Position numbers and translations under genes: made by a program. Source: Thermococcus alcaliphilus (GTDB lineage Archaea > Methanobacteriota_B > Thermococci > Thermococcales > Thermococcaceae). From it: DNA of 64,000 nucleotides. Positions 55,515 to 64,000 of the stretch are shown piece by piece (the first letter of the stretch is position 1; the number at the start of each line of letters is the position of its first letter). Location: the NCBI RefSeq assembly GCF_024054535.1, contig NZ_JAMXLV010000018.1:1-64000 (forward strand), given 5' to 3'. Under the pieces are notes generated by a model. The model was not told the DNA's origin and searched no databases. It saw nothing but the letters and a program-made list of their open reading frames with translations.

Positions 55515-56300
55515 CTATTCCCTTATGAACAAAGCCGCGCCCATGCCAAAGTATGATGGGCAAGCGTAAGCAGTTTTTATGAGCTTCATTGGAACCTTTC
55601 TTAAAACGCCGTAAAGGACGAGCAGCTGCCAGTAGCTGTCCGGCAAAGCTTTGTTTATCAGCTCATCCGGTATCTCAAGGAACTCTTCAAGTCTACTTTC
55701 TTGGATTATTCTCATGATAAGCTCATCATATTCCTTAGCTTCGGGTGCATAGCCGTACGGGCCGTTGCCGTGTGCATGGGCATGGTCTGCACTCGCTATG
55801 AAGGCTACCCTTTTTCCGTAGTTTTCAAGGACTTCCCCAACAATTTCCCCGAATTTAACAAGCGTTTCTTTCGGAATGTGCCGTGCGGGAGTTAAAAGCA
55901 CTAGCGGTCTCTTTTCCAAGAAGTGGAGAGGTATAAGTTCTCCCCAAGTTAAGGGAAAACGGGAGTATTCCCCACTCAGCGAGGCAAAGTTTATATCAAC
56001 CACGGGCAAACCTTCAGTCTTTGCCTTTAGGTATATCTCTCTGGCAAGCTCTTTGTCCGTTTTATACTCCCCTGGAAGCTGAACTCCAGCAAAACCGAGC
56101 CACGAAATTAGATTCTCAGCCATTATAACCCCAAGGGCTTCACTCATGCGAACGTTATGAGGACTTATAAGAACATAAACCTCTGCTCTTGAAAGCTCCC
56201 TGCCAATTTCCTTAAGGACTTCTGCAAGCTTTCTCGTCTCCTCGTCCTCTGGCTTGAGAACGGGGTTCCCATGAGGCATCATAGCGACACCAATTAACAT
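55515..56300 (-). CDS. DODA-type (LigB-like) extradiol dioxygenase homologue
   Basis: This 261-residue protein of the class III extradiol dioxygenase fold has candidate metal histidines in MMPHGNP and SPHNVRMSE, and the catalytic segment ASADHAHAHGNGPYGY. The class opens catechols or modifies amino-acid-derived catechols such as DOPA, and relatives include Memo-type proteins without oxygenase activity. No oxygen-dependent aromatic pathway is expected in an anaerobe. It sits 4 nt after threonine synthase, so its true reaction is open. GGTGATG precedes ATG 56300. Confidence 0.8.
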   Translation of the reverse strand: MLIGVAMMPHGNPVLKPEDEETRKLAEVLKEIGRELSRAEVYVLISPHNVRMSEALGVIMAENLISWLGFAGVQLPGEYKTDKELAREIYLKAKTEGLPVVDINFASLSGEYSRFPLTWGELIPLHFLEKRPLVLLTPARHIPKETLVKFGEIVGEVLENYGKRVAFIASADHAHAHGNGPYGYAPEAKEYDELIMRIIQESRLEEFLEIPDELINKALPDSYWQLLVLYGVLRKVPMKLIKTAYACPSYFGMGAALFIRE

Positions 56301-56304
56301 TGCA

Positions 56305-57456
56305 TCACCACCTAAAACATTCCTCAAGGGATTCCAAAGAGCATTCATCTACTTTTGGGGTCTCAACGTGAGTTAGAGTCTTCAATCCAGCCCCAGTGAG
56401 AATGCTAACAACCTTCGCTCCTTCTTCAATGACGCCTCTTTCTCTGAGCTTTCTTATTGCACTCACTCCTGTTGCAGAGGCAGGCTGAACAAAGAGGCCT
56501 TCTCTGCCAAGGGCTTTTTGGGATTCCAAGATTTCTTCATCATTAACGGTAATGCATAGTCCGTCAAGTTCTCTCAAACGCCTCACCACTGCGTTCCCGC
56601 TTGGCGGATAGGGATTTTCTATGGCGTGGGCTATTGTGTGCGGGCTCTCAAACCTCTCTATTCTATCTTTTCCACTGTTGAACGCTTTGCATATTGGAGA
56701 ACAGCCTTCCGCTTGAACCACCACAAAACGAGGGAGGTTTTCGATTAACCCACTCTCTTTAAGTTCTAAAAATCCCTTCACAATCCCCCTAAACAGTCCT
56801 CCCGAGGAAGTAGGGACAACGACATAATCTGGAGTTATTTCCTCAATTATTTCGAAGCTTATGCTCTTGTACCCTTCAATCCTAAAGGGATCATCCGAGT
56901 TTATGAAGTATATACCCTTTTTCTGGCCTATTTCAAGGCTTTTGTAATAGAGCTCCCCGTAATCCCCATGAACTTTGATTATTTTTGCCCCATAAACTTC
57001 TAAAGCTTTGAGTTTTTCCTCTGCTATCGTCGATGAAACGAGAATGTACGTTTCAAGTCCAGCAAAAGCTCCATAAGCGGCAATGCTTGCCGCCATATTG
57101 CCCGTTGAGACCGTGCCAATCTTTTCAAACCCCAGCTGAAGAGCCCTATGAATGCCAAGATAAGTCCCCCTGTCCTTAAAGCTCCACGTGGGATTTGTGG
57201 TTTCATTTTTGAGATAAAGTTTAACTCCAAGCTCCTTTGAGAGCTTTTTTGCCTTTGTCAGTGGGGTGTCCCCCTCTCCAAGACTTAGCTCTGGCTTAAG
57301 CTCGAATGGGAAAAATCCGGAGAATTTCTCCCAAACTTTTCTCCCTATTCCGGGAACGCTCTTGAAAAGTTCAAGCTCCAAGGGTTCTCCGCACTCACAC
57401 CTCTGATATGGCTTTCTCAGAGAGTACTCTCTCCCGCATGCAGTACATTTCAGCAT
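56305..57456 (-). CDS. thrC: Threonine synthase
   Basis: The 383-residue PLP enzyme converts O-phosphohomoserine to threonine. A rubredoxin-like N-terminal CxxC pair (CTACG and CECG) is followed by GEGDTPL, the PLP lysine in WSFKDRG and the phosphate cup in SSGGLFRG. The ATG at 57456 lies 6 nt after GGAGGTG; the nine extra codons upstream are not used. It is the fourth gene of the operon that begins with the MFS transporter. Confidence 0.93.
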   Translation of the reverse strand: MLKCTACGREYSLRKPYQRCECGEPLELELFKSVPGIGRKVWEKFSGFFPFELKPELSLGEGDTPLTKAKKLSKELGVKLYLKNETTNPTWSFKDRGTYLGIHRALQLGFEKIGTVSTGNMAASIAAYGAFAGLETYILVSSTIAEEKLKALEVYGAKIIKVHGDYGELYYKSLEIGQKKGIYFINSDDPFRIEGYKSISFEIIEEITPDYVVVPTSSGGLFRGIVKGFLELKESGLIENLPRFVVVQAEGCSPICKAFNSGKDRIERFESPHTIAHAIENPYPPSGNAVVRRLRELDGLCITVNDEEILESQKALGREGLFVQPASATGVSAIRKLRERGVIEEGAKVVSILTGAGLKTLTHVETPKVDECSLESLEECFRW

Positions 57457-57479
57457 GAATTCACCTCCAACATGCAGCG

Positions 57480-58316
57480 TCATTTGGTTTTTGCGGCTCT
57501 CCCCAGAACTTCCCTTATTATCTTTGCAGCAGCAAAAGCACTTATACCTTTGTAATCATAATTAGGATTAAGCTCCACAATGTCAAAGGCAATTATTTCC
57601 ACGTTCAAGCTCTTTATTACTTCGACAAGCTCCCTCGTGCTTAGACCTCCCGGCTCAGGATTTCCCACACCAGGGGCAAAGGCAGGATCTAGGACGTCCA
57701 TATCAAACGAAAGGTATGCTTTTTCGAAAGGCACATGGACTCTTGGAGATTGATAAATCTCTGATGCAGAGATTATTTTTACTCCATGCTCCTTTGCAAA
57801 TTCGACCTGCTCTCTTGTAGGTGCCCTCACACCAATTTGGACAACGTTCTCCCTTTTTACCCAGCCCTCCTCTACCAATCGCCTTACCGTGCACGCGTGG
57901 GAGTACTTGTCACCCTCGTATTCTGGATACATGTCTGGATGAGCATCAAAGTAAATCAAGCCGAAATCCTCGTCTGAGGCTTCTTCAATCGCCTTAAAAG
58001 TGGTATAGGTTATAGAATGGTCTCCACCTAAAAAAAGGAAGAGTTCTCCATTATAATGCTCTTTAACTGTTTTGTTGACCTTTTCAACTAGCTCCTCAAA
58101 GGTATCTGCTTTGATATCTCCTAAATCCTTGTAGCTCCAATGTTCAGCTAGATTGACCAGGTCTTCATTAAAGCTGTTGTAAAGCTCCTCGGAAGTTGCC
58201 TCCCTTATGGCTTTTGGCCCTTCAGCGCAACCTCTTCTAAAGGAAGAGGAGTTATCCCACGGAATCCCGAGGATGTAGAGGTTTGGTTTTTTAGATGAAG
58301 GAATTCCAAAAAGCAT
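57480..58316 (-). CDS. speB: Agmatinase-family ureohydrolase
   Basis: The 278-residue manganese enzyme shows the ligands in GGDHS, FDAHPD and SFDMDVLDP. In Thermococcales close relatives act on N1-aminopropylagmatine rather than agmatine in polyamine synthesis, so the substrate is one of the two. The ATG immediately follows the stop of the MetRS-beta-like gene (TAGATG). No regulatory site is visible. Confidence 0.92.
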   Translation of the reverse strand: MLFGIPSSKKPNLYILGIPWDNSSSFRRGCAEGPKAIREATSEELYNSFNEDLVNLAEHWSYKDLGDIKADTFEELVEKVNKTVKEHYNGELFLFLGGDHSITYTTFKAIEEASDEDFGLIYFDAHPDMYPEYEGDKYSHACTVRRLVEEGWVKRENVVQIGVRAPTREQVEFAKEHGVKIISASEIYQSPRVHVPFEKAYLSFDMDVLDPAFAPGVGNPEPGGLSTRELVEVIKSLNVEIIAFDIVELNPNYDYKGISAFAAAKIIREVLGRAAKTK

Positions 58317-58646
58317 CTACCACACCTTCGTTCCTATTGGAACTTCATCCGGAACTGGCAAAAGGTAAACTTTGCCGTCTTCGCTCTCGGCAACTATAAG
58401 CATTCCTTGGCTCTCAACACCTGAAAGCTTTTTGGGCTTCAGGTTTAAGACGAAAATAAACTTCTTTCCTTCAAGCTCCTCGGGAGTGTATTGATCAGCT
58501 AAACCAGTTATTATAGTCCTCTGCTCACTTCCAAAGTCCACTTCGAGTTTTATGAGCTTCTTAGTTCTCTTCAGCTTTTCAGCTTTTTTAACAAGGCCCA
58601 CCCTAAGGTCAAACTTCCAGAATTCATTGACATCATAAAGCTCCAT
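58317..58646 (-). CDS. tRNA-binding protein, MetRS beta-subunit like
   Basis: The 109-residue OB-fold protein corresponds to the C-terminal EMAP-II/Trbp111 domain of methionyl-tRNA synthetase, with motifs DLRVGLVKKAEK and VVNLKPxKLSGVESQGM-like wording (VLNLKPKKLSGVESQGM). In archaea this domain is often a separate subunit that binds tRNA elbows. GGTGA lies 5 nt before ATG 58646; the frame to 58712 is rejected. It is followed directly by speB. Confidence 0.92.
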   Translation of the reverse strand: MELYDVNEFWKFDLRVGLVKKAEKLKRTKKLIKLEVDFGSEQRTIITGLADQYTPEELEGKKFIFVLNLKPKKLSGVESQGMLIVAESEDGKVYLLPVPDEVPIGTKVW

Positions 58647-58680
58647 AAATTTCACCACAAAAGATTGGGGAAGCGAATAT

Positions 58681-59994
58681 TTAGGCTTTGTGCTGAGAGG
58701 AAGCATCTGCACTAAACTTCAAAATGATAAAAATGCTGAGAAGTATTAAAAGGGAAGCAAGAAGAAAGTCTGTAAGGAATCCACCTGCTTTCACGATAAA
58801 TCCGCTCAAGATACTTCCGACGATAGCACCAAGAGAGCTTATCAAGTTATAAAAGCCCATCATTGCCCCTTTTTCTTTCTCTTTCGCAAGCTTAGAGATT
58901 ATTGAAGTTGTTGATATGCCTATGTATGCCCAAGAATATCCGGCCAGTGCGTAGGAAATGAATGCACAGATTTTGAACATCGTTTTAGTTTGGGGTAAGC
59001 CAAGTAAAATAAGAGAGAACCCAAAGCTTCTTATGCTCAATCCCCTAATGAGAGATACTTTTCCACCTCTTCTCTCGGTGTGTATTCCGGCTTTCATATA
59101 CATATAGGCAGCTATTGATGAGTTTAGAATAGCAGCGAGATATATCTCGGAAGTGCTAACATTGCGGGATTTTAACAGGACTGGGAATTGTGAAAAATAT
59201 AACATCGCTCCTACCCAGAAGAGGATTGAGGCAAGATAAAACTCCTTAAACTCCAAAAATCTTGTGAGAGCCCGCTTGTTGTAGTCGGGCAGATGAATCA
59301 TGATGTTTGGCAGATACCTAAACTTTTCGACAATGTAGTTTGCATAAACTCCCAGACTCTTTCTCTCAATCCTAAACGGGGCTTCTTGAATCCACTTAAC
59401 TCCCAAAACAATCGAAGGAATATTAACAACAGCAAAAACTACAAGAAGTTGTCTAATACTTAGAAAATAAGCTAGGAAAAACCCTAGAATAAGCCCCACG
59501 ACCCATGCCCATCCACCTATCTCGTTGAACTTCGCAATTCCGTAGTCGAGTTGCTTTTTCTTTAGGACTCTTGCAATAAGTATAACCGGAATTGGAATTG
59601 TGGCTGCGATGAAGAAAGAATACAGAAAGCTGAGGACCATTAGCTGAGTAATGTTCCTTGAAAACGCCATTAGAAACGAGAACAAAGATGTTCCGATAAA
59701 GCCCAGTACCAAAAAAGGTTTTCTTTTAAGCATTTTATCTGAGAGCTTTCCCCAAAATACTCCCCCTATCATTGAGGCAATGCTTCCAATAGCGTTAATT
59801 ACTCCTACTTCTTGAGGAGATCCACCTGCTTCTAAAGTTAGGAGGGGTATCAGTGTAGAGGTACCACCTGTTGAAACCTTGAAGGGGACAAATGCGTAAA
59901 ACCATCTAATCTTGGACTTCTTTGTGTAGGCAAATAGGGCTGAATCTTCGATGGCTCTTAGGGATGCATTCTCCCTCTTCCGAGAAGCCTTCAT
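58681..59994 (-). CDS. MFS-type transporter
   Basis: The 437-residue protein has about 12 transmembrane helices and the cytoplasmic loop GGVFWGKLSDKMLKRKP, a variant of the MFS loop 2-3 motif. The substrate is unknown; linkage to agmatinase and threonine synthase would fit a polyamine or amino-acid exporter. GGTG precedes ATG 59994. It is first in the five-gene operon to 55515. Confidence 0.85.
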   Translation of the reverse strand: MKASRKRENASLRAIEDSALFAYTKKSKIRWFYAFVPFKVSTGGTSTLIPLLTLEAGGSPQEVGVINAIGSIASMIGGVFWGKLSDKMLKRKPFLVLGFIGTSLFSFLMAFSRNITQLMVLSFLYSFFIAATIPIPVILIARVLKKKQLDYGIAKFNEIGGWAWVVGLILGFFLAYFLSIRQLLVVFAVVNIPSIVLGVKWIQEAPFRIERKSLGVYANYIVEKFRYLPNIMIHLPDYNKRALTRFLEFKEFYLASILFWVGAMLYFSQFPVLLKSRNVSTSEIYLAAILNSSIAAYMYMKAGIHTERRGGKVSLIRGLSIRSFGFSLILLGLPQTKTMFKICAFISYALAGYSWAYIGISTTSIISKLAKEKEKGAMMGFYNLISSLGAIVGSILSGFIVKAGGFLTDFLLASLLILLSIFIILKFSADASSQHKA

Positions 59995-60036
59995 TGGGGA
60001 CACCTTAAAGTAATGAAAGAAGAAGAGAAGAGCAGT

Positions 60037-60466: not shown

Positions 60467-61369
60467 ATGGAGACAGAATTGAACTCTGATGAATCCCCCC
60501 TATTCAGAGCAACAAGCCTAGAGGAGAAATTGGGGATTTCAAAAATCTATCTAAAACTCGAAGCAGCAAATCCAACAAAAACACACAAAGATAGGATCGC
60601 AAAGGCACACGTTAAACGGGCAAAAGCCCTTGGCTTTTCTGGGATTACTGTGGGAACCTGTGGTAATTACGGGACATCTATAGCATATTTTGCAGAAAAA
60701 GAGGGATTAAGAGCCGTGATCTTTATTCCAAGGCACTATGAAAACTCAAGAATGGAAGAAATGAAAAGGCATGGGGCAGAGGTTATATTTGTAGACGGGT
60801 CATATGAGTCAGCAGTCTTTATGAGCAAAACTTTTGCAGCAACTATGAATTATTACGATGCAAACCCGGGATCGCAACCCATAATAGATTACGAAGCTTA
60901 TTCCCTCATTTCAAAAGAAATTCTCAAAGAAATTGAGCCATATGCAGTCTTTGTTCCCGTAGGAAACGGTTCCACTCTAGTGGGGGTTTACTATGGTTTC
61001 AAAAAATATGGAAAGATGCCAAAAATCATTGGAGTTACAACAAGCTACGGAAATCAAATACTGAACGCATTTTATACCGGTAGTATGGAAGAAGTTAGAG
61101 ACTTTGTTGAAACTCATTTCAACGAACCCCTTGTCTCATCGATATCTTTTGATCTTCAAAATGCCCTTGAAGCTGTAAAAGCATCGAAAGGGTATGTTTT
61201 TGGTTTTGCCGATGATACAGCCTTAAAATATGCCAAGATTTTGGAAATGAGTGAGAGGATAAAGGTTCTCCCAGCCTCTGCTCTAACTTTAGCCGGGCTT
61301 GTTAAGTTTGTTAGAAAATTCGGTGTAAATAACGAGAATTTCGTCCTGCTCCTTACTGGAGGGGTTTGA
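60467..61369 (+). CDS. Threonine-synthase-like PLP enzyme
   Basis: This 300-residue fold-type II PLP enzyme has the Schiff-base lysine Lys41 in PTKTHKDRIAKAH, TVGTCGNYGTSIA for the substrate carboxylate, and the phosphate cup VGNGST (165-170). It lacks the N-terminal zinc region of the threonine synthase at 56305 and is about 80 residues shorter. It is closer to the threonine/cysteate synthase and diaminopropionate-synthesis branch. The reaction, a beta- or gamma-replacement or elimination, is not determinable. GGTGTGAG precedes the ATG. It is first in an operon with DUF1611 and PP-loop genes. Confidence 0.83.
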   Translation: METELNSDESPLFRATSLEEKLGISKIYLKLEAANPTKTHKDRIAKAHVKRAKALGFSGITVGTCGNYGTSIAYFAEKEGLRAVIFIPRHYENSRMEEMKRHGAEVIFVDGSYESAVFMSKTFAATMNYYDANPGSQPIIDYEAYSLISKEILKEIEPYAVFVPVGNGSTLVGVYYGFKKYGKMPKIIGVTTSYGNQILNAFYTGSMEEVRDFVETHFNEPLVSSISFDLQNALEAVKASKGYVFGFADDTALKYAKILEMSERIKVLPASALTLAGLVKFVRKFGVNNENFVLLLTGGV

Positions 61370-61371
61370 AA

Positions 61372-62469
61372 ATGAAGAAAGCCTTGATTCTTGCAGAAGG
61401 AAGATACAACACAAGCGATGGAAAGACTGCCCATGGGTTGGTTAGATACTCTAAGAGGTTTAAGATTGTGGGGGTAATAGATTCCACTTTGGCTGGAAAG
61501 GACGCTGGAGAAGTCTTGGATGGAATACCCCGCAACATTCCCATCTACGGAAGCTTCGAGGAAGCAGTTGCAGAGAATCCCGATGTTAAGTATCTCATAA
61601 TTGGAGTGGCAACTCCTGGCGGATATTTGCCTCCGCTCTACAAGGAGATTATAAAAAAAGCAATAAAAAGAGGGATGAACATAGTTAATGGTCTCCACAA
61701 CTTCCTCAGCGACGATCCCGAATTTTCTCGCTTAGCCAAAAGGTACAAGGTTCAGCTGATAGATGTAAGGAAGATATACAGAGACCTAAAAATTCCTTTC
61801 ACAGGAAAAATTGAGGAAGTCAAGACCATAAAAGTCGCCGTACTGGGGACTGATGGTGCAATAGGCAAAAGAACTACCGCGATAATGCTTCATGAGGCAT
61901 TTAAGCACTTTGGAAAGAAGAGCGTTTTTGTGGCAATGGGACAAACAGGGTGGATGCAAGGGGCAAAATACTGCATAGTAATGGACTCAATAGTAAACGA
62001 CTTCGTTGCAGGGGCTATTGAGGACGTTATCTGGAGAGCTTGGAAAGAAGAAAATCCGGATGTTATTGTTACACACGGAGAGGGTTCTCTCCTCCACCCA
62101 GCTTATCCAGGTGGATTTGAGTTAATAGCCTCAGGTAGACCAGACTACATTGTGCTCCAGCATGCCCCGGCAAGAAAATTCTTCGATGACTTCCCTCAGT
62201 ACGAAATTCCACCATTAGAGAGGTACATACAGCTGATTGAACTCCTCTCTGGTAAGAAGCCAATAGCTATCACAATAAACTCTGAAAGACTTACGAAGGA
62301 AGAAGCTATCCAAAAAGCCAGGGAAATAGAAGCAACTTACGGAATTCTAACGAGAGTACCTCTATATGAGGGTGTCGAAGACATAGTTAAGGCAATTCTT
62401 GAAGACGCAGAACACTTAAAAGCAGTGGCCCAGCAAGAGGTGACTGCAAATGCCTCTCAAATGCTTTGA
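61372..62469 (+). CDS. DUF1611 P-loop protein (DgcN-like)
   Basis: The 365-residue protein has a Rossmann-like N-terminal domain (about 1-150) and a P-loop domain whose variant Walker A GTDGAIGKRTT starts at Gly159. Later family blocks are MGQTGWMQG and HGEGSLLHPAYPGG. The bacterial relative DgcN is reported to be a D-glutamate N-acetyltransferase paired with a racemase; Thermotoga homologues have no proven role. GGAGGGG precedes ATG 61372, 2 nt after the PLP gene. The PP-loop gene overlaps its 3' end by 20 bp. Confidence 0.85.
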   Translation: MKKALILAEGRYNTSDGKTAHGLVRYSKRFKIVGVIDSTLAGKDAGEVLDGIPRNIPIYGSFEEAVAENPDVKYLIIGVATPGGYLPPLYKEIIKKAIKRGMNIVNGLHNFLSDDPEFSRLAKRYKVQLIDVRKIYRDLKIPFTGKIEEVKTIKVAVLGTDGAIGKRTTAIMLHEAFKHFGKKSVFVAMGQTGWMQGAKYCIVMDSIVNDFVAGAIEDVIWRAWKEENPDVIVTHGEGSLLHPAYPGGFELIASGRPDYIVLQHAPARKFFDDFPQYEIPPLERYIQLIELLSGKKPIAITINSERLTKEEAIQKAREIEATYGILTRVPLYEGVEDIVKAILEDAEHLKAVAQQEVTANASQML

Positions 62470-63883
62470 TTACATATCCATTGAAAAGCCAAAGCTCTCT
62501 TCTCGGAGGATCTCCTCCGTTTATACAATTTCTATTGATGGAAATGAGGAAAAATTTAGGCTCATTCACACCTACGAAGAAAAAATTCCCAGAAATGAAG
62601 TCTTCGCAAAGCTTATGGTCATAACTCCAGCGATAAACTACGCTCTCTTCACCCCAGAAATTTTCTTTAACTTTCCCCTCGATCCAAGAGACCTGCAGTT
62701 CTTTAAGGATATGATGGGGCTTACTGCAAATGATATCCTTGTGAACAGGATATACAAGAGGACAGGATTTGTCAGGGAAGAGTTCATCCCCAAAGAGATA
62801 AAACCGCAGCCTTTAGCGGAGGTTGTCCCGGAAAGAGTTGAAGAGGAAAATGTAAAACTAACTCCCGGCTACAACAAATGCGCTGTAATGCTTAGTGGTG
62901 GAAAGGAGAGCCTTCTCACCTATGGGCTTATGAAGGAGATCGGGTGCGAGGTTTATCCATTCTTTTTCAACGAATCCGGTGGACACTGGAAAGTTGCCCT
63001 AACAGCGTACAAGTGGTTCAAGGAGCATGAGCCAAATACCAAGAAAGTGTGGAGCAACGTGGACAGGCTTTACACATTTATAGAAAAGCACATGAAGATA
63101 CTTCAAAACGTAGGCAAGCCAAAGGCTGAGGTATATCCGATAAGGCTATTTTTCTTTGAGCATTACGTCTTCTCCTTCCTGCCACTAATTGAAAAGTACA
63201 ACATAGGAAATGTTTTGCTAGGCAACGAATATGACGACCCAAGAGGTCTCACCTACGAGTTCCATGGGATACCTCACTTTTATGCCGTCCTCGACCAGAG
63301 CCAGTTCTTCGACAAGTATATGACGAGATGGTTCGCCGAGAGGGGCTTAAATATAAGGCAGTGGTCTGCCGTAAGACCAATAACGGGACTTATCGTTGAG
63401 AGAATCCTCTACAACCGCTATCCGGAGCTCTTTAAACTCCAGAGGAGCTGTCACTCAGTTCACAAGGAGGGTGAAGATTATGTCCCCTGTGGCACATGCT
63501 TCAAGTGTAATGGTATCCAAACTTTTCTGCTCGCCAATGGAATAGATCCCCAGCTCATCAAATACAAACCACACCATATAGAAACACTCCCCAAGAGGAT
63601 AGCGAAAGGAAAAGTTAGACTTGACGAAGATGAACTCCAGCACTCACTCTATCTAATAAAGCAGAGAACCCCCAATTTTCCGCTAAGCGGGAAGAGGAGA
63701 GACCACGTGGAGATGCTCCACTTCGATGATAGAAATTCTCACTTCGACAACATCCCCCTGGAGTTCAGGAAGAGGATATACTCAATCTTTGAGCAGTATA
63801 CAAAAGGATATGCCTATCTAAAGGAAGGCAAATGGGTTGAAATAACAAGGGAGGAGGTGCTTCATGGAGTACACGATAGTTGA
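62450..63883 (+). CDS. QueC-like PP-loop ATP pyrophosphatase
   Basis: The 477-residue protein has an N-terminal domain of ~135 residues without recognised homology, then an N-type ATP pyrophosphatase domain with the PP-loop SGGKES (149-154). Four cysteines (334, 347, 350, 353; C-x12-C-x2-C-x2-C) resemble the zinc site of QueC, which turns a carboxylate into a nitrile through AMP activation. Its length is twice that of QueC, so it is a distinct family. It would adenylate a carboxylate or amide in this pathway. GGTGA sits before the ATG, inside the DUF1611 gene. Confidence 0.85.
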   Translation: MPLKCFDYISIEKPKLSSRRISSVYTISIDGNEEKFRLIHTYEEKIPRNEVFAKLMVITPAINYALFTPEIFFNFPLDPRDLQFFKDMMGLTANDILVNRIYKRTGFVREEFIPKEIKPQPLAEVVPERVEEENVKLTPGYNKCAVMLSGGKESLLTYGLMKEIGCEVYPFFFNESGGHWKVALTAYKWFKEHEPNTKKVWSNVDRLYTFIEKHMKILQNVGKPKAEVYPIRLFFFEHYVFSFLPLIEKYNIGNVLLGNEYDDPRGLTYEFHGIPHFYAVLDQSQFFDKYMTRWFAERGLNIRQWSAVRPITGLIVERILYNRYPELFKLQRSCHSVHKEGEDYVPCGTCFKCNGIQTFLLANGIDPQLIKYKPHHIETLPKRIAKGKVRLDEDELQHSLYLIKQRTPNFPLSGKRRDHVEMLHFDDRNSHFDNIPLEFRKRIYSIFEQYTKGYAYLKEGKWVEITREEVLHGVHDS

Positions 63884-64000
63884 CGGGGAGATATATCTGG
63901 AAGAGATCAAAAAGCTTGACAGGGAAATAAGCTACTCATTCGTTCGCTTTTCCATTCCCTATGAGGACTTCGCAAAGAGGCACGAAGAACTCTTTAGAGA
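63864..64000 (+). CDS. Unidentified gene, cut by the window end
   Basis: A strong site GGGAGGAGGTG precedes ATG 63864, and the frame stays open to 64000 (45 complete codons, beginning MEYTIVDGEIYLEEI). It overlaps the PP-loop gene by 20 bp, the same coupling used by the previous pair. Too little is visible to name a family. It is the fourth gene of the operon. Confidence 0.75.
   Translation, partial: MEYTIVDGEIYLEEIKKLDREISYSFVRFSIPYEDFAKRHEELFR

Follow-up and report, generated by a model that had tools for sequence, protein, structure and literature searches.

The window analysed here (positions 1-64,000 of contig NZ_JAMXLV010000018.1, in the 1.89 Mb genome of Thermococcus alcaliphilus) closes with an operon of four genes, three of which encode a pyridoxal 5'-phosphate (PLP)-dependent enzyme, a DUF1611 protein, and a PP-loop ATP pyrophosphatase that, as modelled, resembles QatC. 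The co-occurrence of these three genes across archaeal genomes, their order, and the agreement of their trees support the interpretation that they constitute one functional unit, which may belong to small-molecule metabolism. The features of the operon, all on the plus strand, are:

60467-61369: PLP enzyme of fold-type II (PALP), 300 amino acids, a threonine synthase paralogue (PF00291, 5.6e-53)
60587-60589: Lys41 codon of the PLP enzyme, from the translation
60659-60661: codon of the invariant Cys65 of the PLP enzyme, from the translation and the alignment of relatives
61372-62469: DUF1611 protein, 365 amino acids, with a Rossmann-like N-terminal domain and a P-loop C-terminal domain, a relative of DgcN (PF07755, 1.1e-67; PF17396, 2.7e-33)
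61846-61878: P-loop GTDGAIGKRTT of the DUF1611 protein, residues 159-169, from the translation and conserved in the alignment
62450-63883: putative QatC-like PP-loop ATP pyrophosphatase, 477 amino acids, with an N-terminal extension (residues ~1-140), a PP-loop core and a C-terminal extension
62894-62911: PP-loop SGGKES, residues 149-154, from the translation and conserved in relatives
63449-63508: four-cysteine site C334-x12-C347-G-x-C350-xx-C353, present in 39/39 relatives
63864-64000, continuing to 64328 on the contig (L002:4865-5329): start of the gene for a GNAT acetyltransferase of 154 amino acids (PF00583, 2.2e-17; PDB 1vkc, 3.7e-79)

Among 94 genomes of the family Thermococcaceae, to which the window belongs, the PP-loop gene has a match in 27. 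DUF1611 is present in 24 of the 94 and in none of the 67 that lack the PP-loop gene; matches above 350 bits to the PLP profile occur in 20, none of them without the PP-loop gene, and 12 further matches within the limit (205-213 bits, in frames of ~400 amino acids) are probably true threonine synthases. All four genes are found in the same order in 19 of the 27 genomes by tblastn on loci with ~1.5-kb flanks, which end inside the PLP gene, so that this gene is covered only in part. These 19 include G070, whose PP-loop frame is interrupted by an in-frame stop, and G068, in which the PLP gene is cut by the contig start. G027 has all four genes with the PP-loop frame broken, most of the PLP gene is absent from G089, contig ends truncate the loci of G047, G050 and G053, all four operon genes have decayed in G029, and a PP-loop fragment is all that is present in G010 and G011. 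In G055 the site is empty, with the same flanking genes kept. The empty site of G055, and the breaks in G029, which are found in the MFS transporter gene as well as in the operon, fit a module that is dispensable.

A scan of genome contigs with patterns derived from the Thermococcaceae alignment returned seven loci, all assigned to Thermococcales, Thermococcaceae, Thermococcus or Thermoplasmata/Thermoplasmatota. The same operon is present in the Thermococcales, Thermococcaceae and Thermococcus sp. records (PP-loop protein identity 68-94%), and two Thermoplasmata relatives of the PP-loop protein (34-35% identity) have PLP and DUF1611 genes in front. A profile search of 389 Thermoplasmatota genomes gave 72 matches in 67 of them. 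Examination covered 70 of the 72 matches, all but a stop-containing fragment in G299 and a match of 35 bits in G236. In 58 of the 67 genomes the three genes lie on one strand in the order PLP, DUF1611, PP-loop, and in 65 DUF1611 lies upstream of the PP-loop gene. G129 has all three genes, with a 1.46-kb gap ahead of the PP-loop gene; six genomes have DUF1611 and PP-loop genes with no local PLP gene, of which five have a close PLP paralogue (385-438 bits) elsewhere in the genome and one (G374) has none; and in G242 and G160 (a weak match) the PP-loop gene has neither partner beside it. Second PP-loop copies in G369 and G227 sit at contig ends. The DUF1611 family as a whole occurs in 104 of the 389 genomes, 65 of these being PP-loop genomes. 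Mirror-tree correlations over 70 loci are 0.90 for DUF1611 and PP-loop, 0.74 for PLP and DUF1611, and 0.71 for PLP and PP-loop (permutation maxima 0.08-0.11), and the Thermococcaceae rows form one group in each of the three protein trees. The three enzymes are retained or lost as a set, which in Thermococcaceae numbers four, and the genes, far from being rarely adjacent outside this genome, recur side by side in both Thermococcaceae and Thermoplasmatota. The initial annotation, which had treated the trio as one unit, is borne out in this respect.

Within the window, the PLP gene ends in TGA, which is followed by AA and the DUF1611 start codon (ATG at 61372), a 2-nt gap; the PP-loop gene begins 20 bp before the DUF1611 gene ends (62450 and 62469), and on the contig the next gene begins 20 bp before the PP-loop gene ends (63864 and 63883). 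These spacings had been noted before and stand for the window, but an exact 20 bp is not kept in Thermococcaceae relatives: the DUF1611/PP-loop overlap is 14-29 bp at 17 of 18 loci (starts chosen by script and approximate; the PP-loop gene of the eighteenth, L122, is broken), and at the PP-loop/GNAT junction the genes overlap by up to 26 bp or stand up to 82 nt apart, again with approximate starts and with L118, whose PP-loop frame is broken, set aside. The tight coupling of the genes is real and the figure of 20 bp incidental. Lys41, GTDGAIGKRTT, SGGKES and the four cysteines (C334, C347, C350, C353), all previously singled out, are present on translation. Extension past 64000 on the contig identifies the fourth enzyme, which had been left open, as the GNAT acetyltransferase listed above, close to the solved protein 1vkc, presumably from Pyrococcus furiosus.

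The PP-loop protein has no match in Pfam, NCBIfam or PADLOC, and no significant sequence match among solved chains. Three of its 39 relatives match the QueC family PF06508 (best 0.047), and four reach the PADLOC QueC model (best 0.00098). An AlphaFold2 model built with the 39 relatives (mean predicted local distance difference test score, pLDDT, 93.4; predicted template modelling score, pTM, 0.93) has QatC as its top Foldseek match (9y02_B, E 1.3e-6, 457 columns), followed by QueC and Cap9. VIA likewise places QatC first (9y01_B, Z 14.8, 306 residues, model residues 5-412, root-mean-square deviation 4.0), ahead of QueC (3bl5_E, Z 13.3, 193 residues, root-mean-square deviation 3.3) and Cap9 (Z 13.2, 178 residues), with TtuA, YcfA, TilS, NcsA and LarE all at Z 8-10. 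The earlier description 'QueC-like' holds for the core fold and the CGxCxxC site; the closest structural match is QatC, and not QueC, TilS or asparagine synthetase, the three enzymes proposed for comparison. The likeness to QatC, a component of the qatABCD anti-phage defence system, includes the PP-loop core and the four-cysteine site (PMC13279940, PMC13329287), and the N- and C-terminal extensions may correspond to those of QatC. The two proteins differ in that identity is ~10%, the PP-loop is SGGKES where QatC has SGGxDS, the cysteine site is C(x)12CGxCxxC where QatC has C(x)19CGxCxxRR, and the gene sits in an archaeal operon with metabolic enzymes instead of in qatABCD. The QatC motifs C(x)19CGxCxxRR and D(x)4R(x)7WxR are each absent from all 39 relatives. 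The N-terminal extension alone (62450-62869) gives weak RNase H-like matches in Foldseek (best 2.1e-3, to UvrC and RNase H) and at best Z 6.5, to a designed fold, in VIA; because QatC is absent among the 50 matches listed by Foldseek or VIA for this domain, homology of the extensions to those of QatC is not proved.

Conservation among the 39 relatives extends beyond the cysteines, which are invariant as C-x(8-25)-CGxCxxC. At position 153, 35 have E and 4 have D; E175, S176, G177, H179, W180, D205, R206, Y229, P230, F236, E260, D262, D282, Q283 and Q331 are among the invariant residues; and residue 232 is Q in 19 and R in 18. Judged by their spacing, residue 232 and F236 look like R233 and F237 of QatC, which hold adenosine (PMC13279940). 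Three motifs attributed to QueC in PMC13329287, namely VPxRN, YxQxHxxE and YPDC, are each absent from all 39 relatives. The genome's own canonical QueC (L200:1453-2172; PF06508, 208 bits) has VPxRN, but it lacks YxQxHxxE and carries FPDN where YPDC would stand, so the last two are non-discriminating and, to judge from this protein, the published bacterial motifs do not carry over to T. alcaliphilus. All 39 relatives carry (Y/F/L/H)DQ, which hhalign aligns, weakly (E 0.004, probability 8%), with the FPDN of the genome's own QueC. What counts against membership in QueC is thus, at the level of motifs and profiles, the absence of VPxRN and the failure of the Pfam model, and the PP-loop enzyme as modelled appears to be no plain QueC but a branch that resembles QatC and is missed by the libraries searched. 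Among Thermoplasmatota genomes with DUF1611 and PP-loop genes, 58 of 65 were tested for canonical QueC, which is present in 57. Since it is present in these and in the window genome, 7-carboxy-7-deazaguanine (CDG) is probably available and the presence of QueC does not discriminate; CDG is nonetheless disfavoured as the substrate of the PP-loop enzyme. The archaea-only PF06508 clusters 7, 8 and 10 are mentioned in PMC13329287 and left unstudied there; the operon's protein is unlikely to be identical with any of them, because it has no PF06508 match.

The DUF1611 protein matches PF07755 at 227.8 bits and PF17396 at 114.6 bits, and both models are matched by all 26 relatives, in which G159, T160, D161, G165 and K166 are also kept. 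It aligns with 2g0t, 2obn and 7xrj (which we take to be DgcN) through the P-loop GTD..GK, GQTG and EGQGS. The P-loop GTDGAIGKRTT, formerly considered a variant, instead follows the rule of its subfamily, GTDxAxGKRTT. Against the DgcN model NF041892 the protein scores 169 bits, below the equivalog cut-off of 480, and unlike DgcN it is paired with PLP and PP-loop genes. DUF1611 proteins from the trio context form their own clade (83 sequences versus 20, support 0.88), the 20 being from Thermoplasmatota genomes without a PP-loop gene. An enolase-superfamily relative is encoded nearby at 9 of these 20 loci (L182, L185, L186, L187, L192, L193, L195, L197 and L198); that of L182 best matches DgcA in NCBIfam (226 bits, below the cut-off of 400) and that of L198 best matches L-Ala-D/L-Glu epimerase (219 bits, below the cut-off of 500). 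DUF1611 has two contexts in Thermoplasmatota, enolase-associated and trio, since the enolase-neighboured loci resemble the known DgcN-DgcA arrangement; by analogy, the enolase-associated group possibly represents an archaeal DgcN-DgcA pathway. Either acylation or phosphorylation had been suggested for the DUF1611 protein, and acylation appears the likelier, since NCBIfam gives DgcN, a characterised relative, the name N-acetyltransferase. DgcN is said to N-acetylate D-glutamate (D-Glu), in work that appeared in the ISME J in 2023. The dgcN gene belongs to a D-Glu racemisation pathway, and DgcN-DgcA converts D-Glu to L-Glu (PMC12363236, PMC10845958). A relationship of the C-terminal domain to P-loop proteins of the BioD/CobB type was considered and rejected, there being only hints of it: CbiA in 10/26 members (best 0.0015), AAA_26 in 6/26 (best 0.018), and dethiobiotin synthetase at E 0.39.

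The PLP protein is of fold-type II and closest to threonine synthases (2zsj, 6cgq, 2d1f, 1uim), with which it shares the KDR lysine, the phosphate loop and the closing TG; compared with 2zsj it lacks ~20 N-terminal and ~30 C-terminal residues. All 30 relatives retain Lys41, the GNG(S/T)T loop and the closing TG. In place of the STGNT or STGNTA of the aligned threonine synthases, within (A/S)STGNT, the relatives have (S/T)CGN with an invariant cysteine (TCGNYG in the window), and the NPxR motif of threonine synthases is absent from all 30. The NPxR segment of the window protein contains no Arg, and 9/30 relatives have Arg somewhere there. The NPxR arginine is presumably the substrate-phosphate contact of threonine synthases, and the substrate-phosphate site has likely been lost from the PLP enzyme, to judge from the alignment. 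The protein scores 91 bits against TIGR00260 (thrC), below the cut-off of 167, and 425 bits against NF004996, above the cut-off of 266; all 30 relatives match NF004996 at E 1e-5 or better, and this model may describe the paralogue's own subgroup. A second PALP gene of ~390 amino acids lies at 56305-57483 in the window. With the loop rebuilt, NPxR absent and another PALP gene nearby, the name 'threonine synthase' seems doubtful for the operon's protein, and the replacement chemistry ascribed to it by the initial annotation is unproven, because it is related to threonine synthase and has a different substrate loop.

The operon may tentatively be read as an accessory metabolic cassette of archaea whose product is a modified small molecule of the amino-acid type. 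In this reading the PLP enzyme, as a threonine-synthase paralogue whose substrate loop is rebuilt, would form, epimerise, or beta- or gamma-substitute an amino acid; the DUF1611 protein, by analogy with DgcN, would acylate its amino group from acyl-CoA; and the QatC-like PP-loop enzyme would use ATP to adenylate a carboxylate of the N-acylated compound and pass this activated group to an amine, yielding an amide from ammonia or a conjugate from a second amine. In Thermococcaceae only, the GNAT enzyme might acetylate the product or another amine, and the divergently encoded transporter may carry the product. The order of these steps is a guess from gene order. The reading is kept tentative because a fold does not fix a substrate, and several observations weigh against it. 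Amide formation is deduced from the modelled fold, and sulfur transfer is another activity of PP-loop enzymes; beyond the core, the match to QatC over the whole length is loose (Foldseek query TM 0.38-0.40, root-mean-square deviation 10-13 Å); the trio DUF1611 subfamily falls far short of the DgcN cut-off; a same-strand GNAT of the operon type is found only in Thermococcaceae; orthologues of the transporter (above ~435 bits) occur also in 7/67 genomes without the cassette; a second PP-loop copy in G143 (C122) has no partners in the 5.4 kb read upstream, and the copy in G242 that stands alone is the only one in that genome; and the substrates, products and reactions of the operon enzymes are predictions by analogy. 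The narrower proposal that the PP-loop enzyme is a further QatC-type ligase branch in an undescribed archaeal pathway, coupling an amine to the carboxylate of an amino acid that is N-acylated and possibly of D configuration, is unlikely as it stands; if it were true, the QatC reaction might use an amino-acid-like substrate and not a deazaguanine.

The genomic surroundings bear on another explanation, by which the operon would clear or salvage D-amino acids, the PLP enzyme removing or inverting a D-amino acid, DUF1611 N-acylating it, and the PP-loop enzyme trapping it as an amide. In keeping with this, and with the kinship of DUF1611 to DgcN, 27/70 Thermoplasmatota loci have a same-strand gene for D-aminoacyl-tRNA deacylase upstream and 5/70 have it convergently downstream, and at 7/84 loci (six trio loci and that of G242, where the PP-loop gene has no partners) the PP-loop gene is followed by convergent genes for an epimerase-type enolase, a weakly M14-like protein and a RimI-like GNAT. 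At L210:5267-7691 the enolase-superfamily gene overlaps the M14-like gene, a pair that presumably resembles bacterial murein-peptide genes; the enolase-superfamily neighbours of DUF1611 genes outside the trio point the same way. Yet the deacylase gene at L038:6927-7682 (PF04414) follows a gene for a class I tRNA synthetase, presumably valyl-tRNA synthetase, and may be housekeeping; none of these deacylase, enolase and M14 neighbours was seen beside the Thermococcaceae copies examined; and ligation at the expense of ATP would be odd for clearance, which makes this explanation improbable. The context hints and the DgcN kinship place N-acyl and D-amino acids first among the candidate substrates, and do no more than that.

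Less probable still is formation of a thioamide or thiocarboxylate by the PP-loop enzyme, with the PLP enzyme supplying or accepting sulfur: the invariant Cys65 would suit such a role and the sulfur enzymes TtuA, NcsA and LarE do appear in the VIA ranking, but QatC, QueC and Cap9 outrank them (Z 13-15 versus 8-10) and TilS and YcfA share the lower band. To our knowledge, neither TilS nor YcfA is a sulfur enzyme. Also against sulfur transfer, a cysteine site of the CGxCxxC kind binds zinc in QueC and QatC (PMC13329287, PMC13279940). Protein modification in defence, as in Qat or type IV CBASS (cyclic-oligonucleotide-based anti-phage signalling system), in which the PP-loop enzyme would attach a small molecule to the N-terminus of a protein, would suit the best structural match, QatC, whose own reaction is reported as unresolved in PMC13279940. 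This is very unlikely here: the partner enzymes look metabolic, none of the operon proteins begins with MG, the four operon proteins have no PADLOC match and ten neighbours in the window genome have no convincing one (best 0.0099; QatB has no Pfam model), and there is no phage match for the PP-loop protein and no plasmid match for its Thermoplasmatota homologue L107. Ordinary metabolism by a threonine synthase and a preQ0 synthase is the most remote of the explanations, despite the name given to the PLP gene by NF004996, the Arg near the NPxR site in some relatives, and the lack of a literal YxQxHxxE and YPDC in the genome's own QueC as well; the second PALP gene, the canonical QueC elsewhere in this and nearly all trio genomes tested, and the absence of the threonine synthase STGNT loop and the QueC VPxRN motif speak against it.

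Two further genes flank the operon:

58681-60003, minus strand: divergent major facilitator superfamily (MFS) transporter (PF07690, 1.5e-37)
64311-64985 in window numbering (L002:5312-5986), convergent with the GNAT gene and overlapping its end: carbon-nitrogen hydrolase (PF00795)

An MFS orthologue is present in 20/27 genomes with a PP-loop match, and by coordinates the MFS gene adjoins the operon in 19 of the 27 and marks the empty site in G055. The transporter was rejected as an obligatory part, given its incomplete presence with the cassette and its occurrence without it, and the GNAT enzyme was rejected as a universal fourth member, a RimI-like GNAT in Thermoplasmatota often being convergent instead. 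The carbon-nitrogen hydrolase family was seen at the operon in two examined loci, L110 and L125. Upstream of the operon, a minus-strand run (55515-58712) contains LigB/MEMO-type (PF02900), PALP, arginase-family (PF00491) and tRNA-binding-domain (PF01588) genes.

In agreement with the initial annotation, which knew of no characterised pathway containing the full set, none was found in the open-licence literature of PubMed Central, nor was any paper there on this gene combination in Thermococcus. Open-licence papers naming DUF1611 are, by title and abstract, not about the PLP, DUF1611 and PP-loop set, and the operon's PP-loop group is not described in the parts of PMC13279940 and PMC13329287 that were consulted. 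What is new is a conserved combination, not found described, of known enzyme families, with a QatC-like branch that libraries miss. The Thermococcaceae include laboratory model strains. A conserved, uncharacterised archaeal gene set is thereby defined in which the names 'threonine synthase' and 'QueC-like' are put in doubt, and which, through the enzymes that accompany its QatC relative, could reveal chemistry that QatC structures alone did not.

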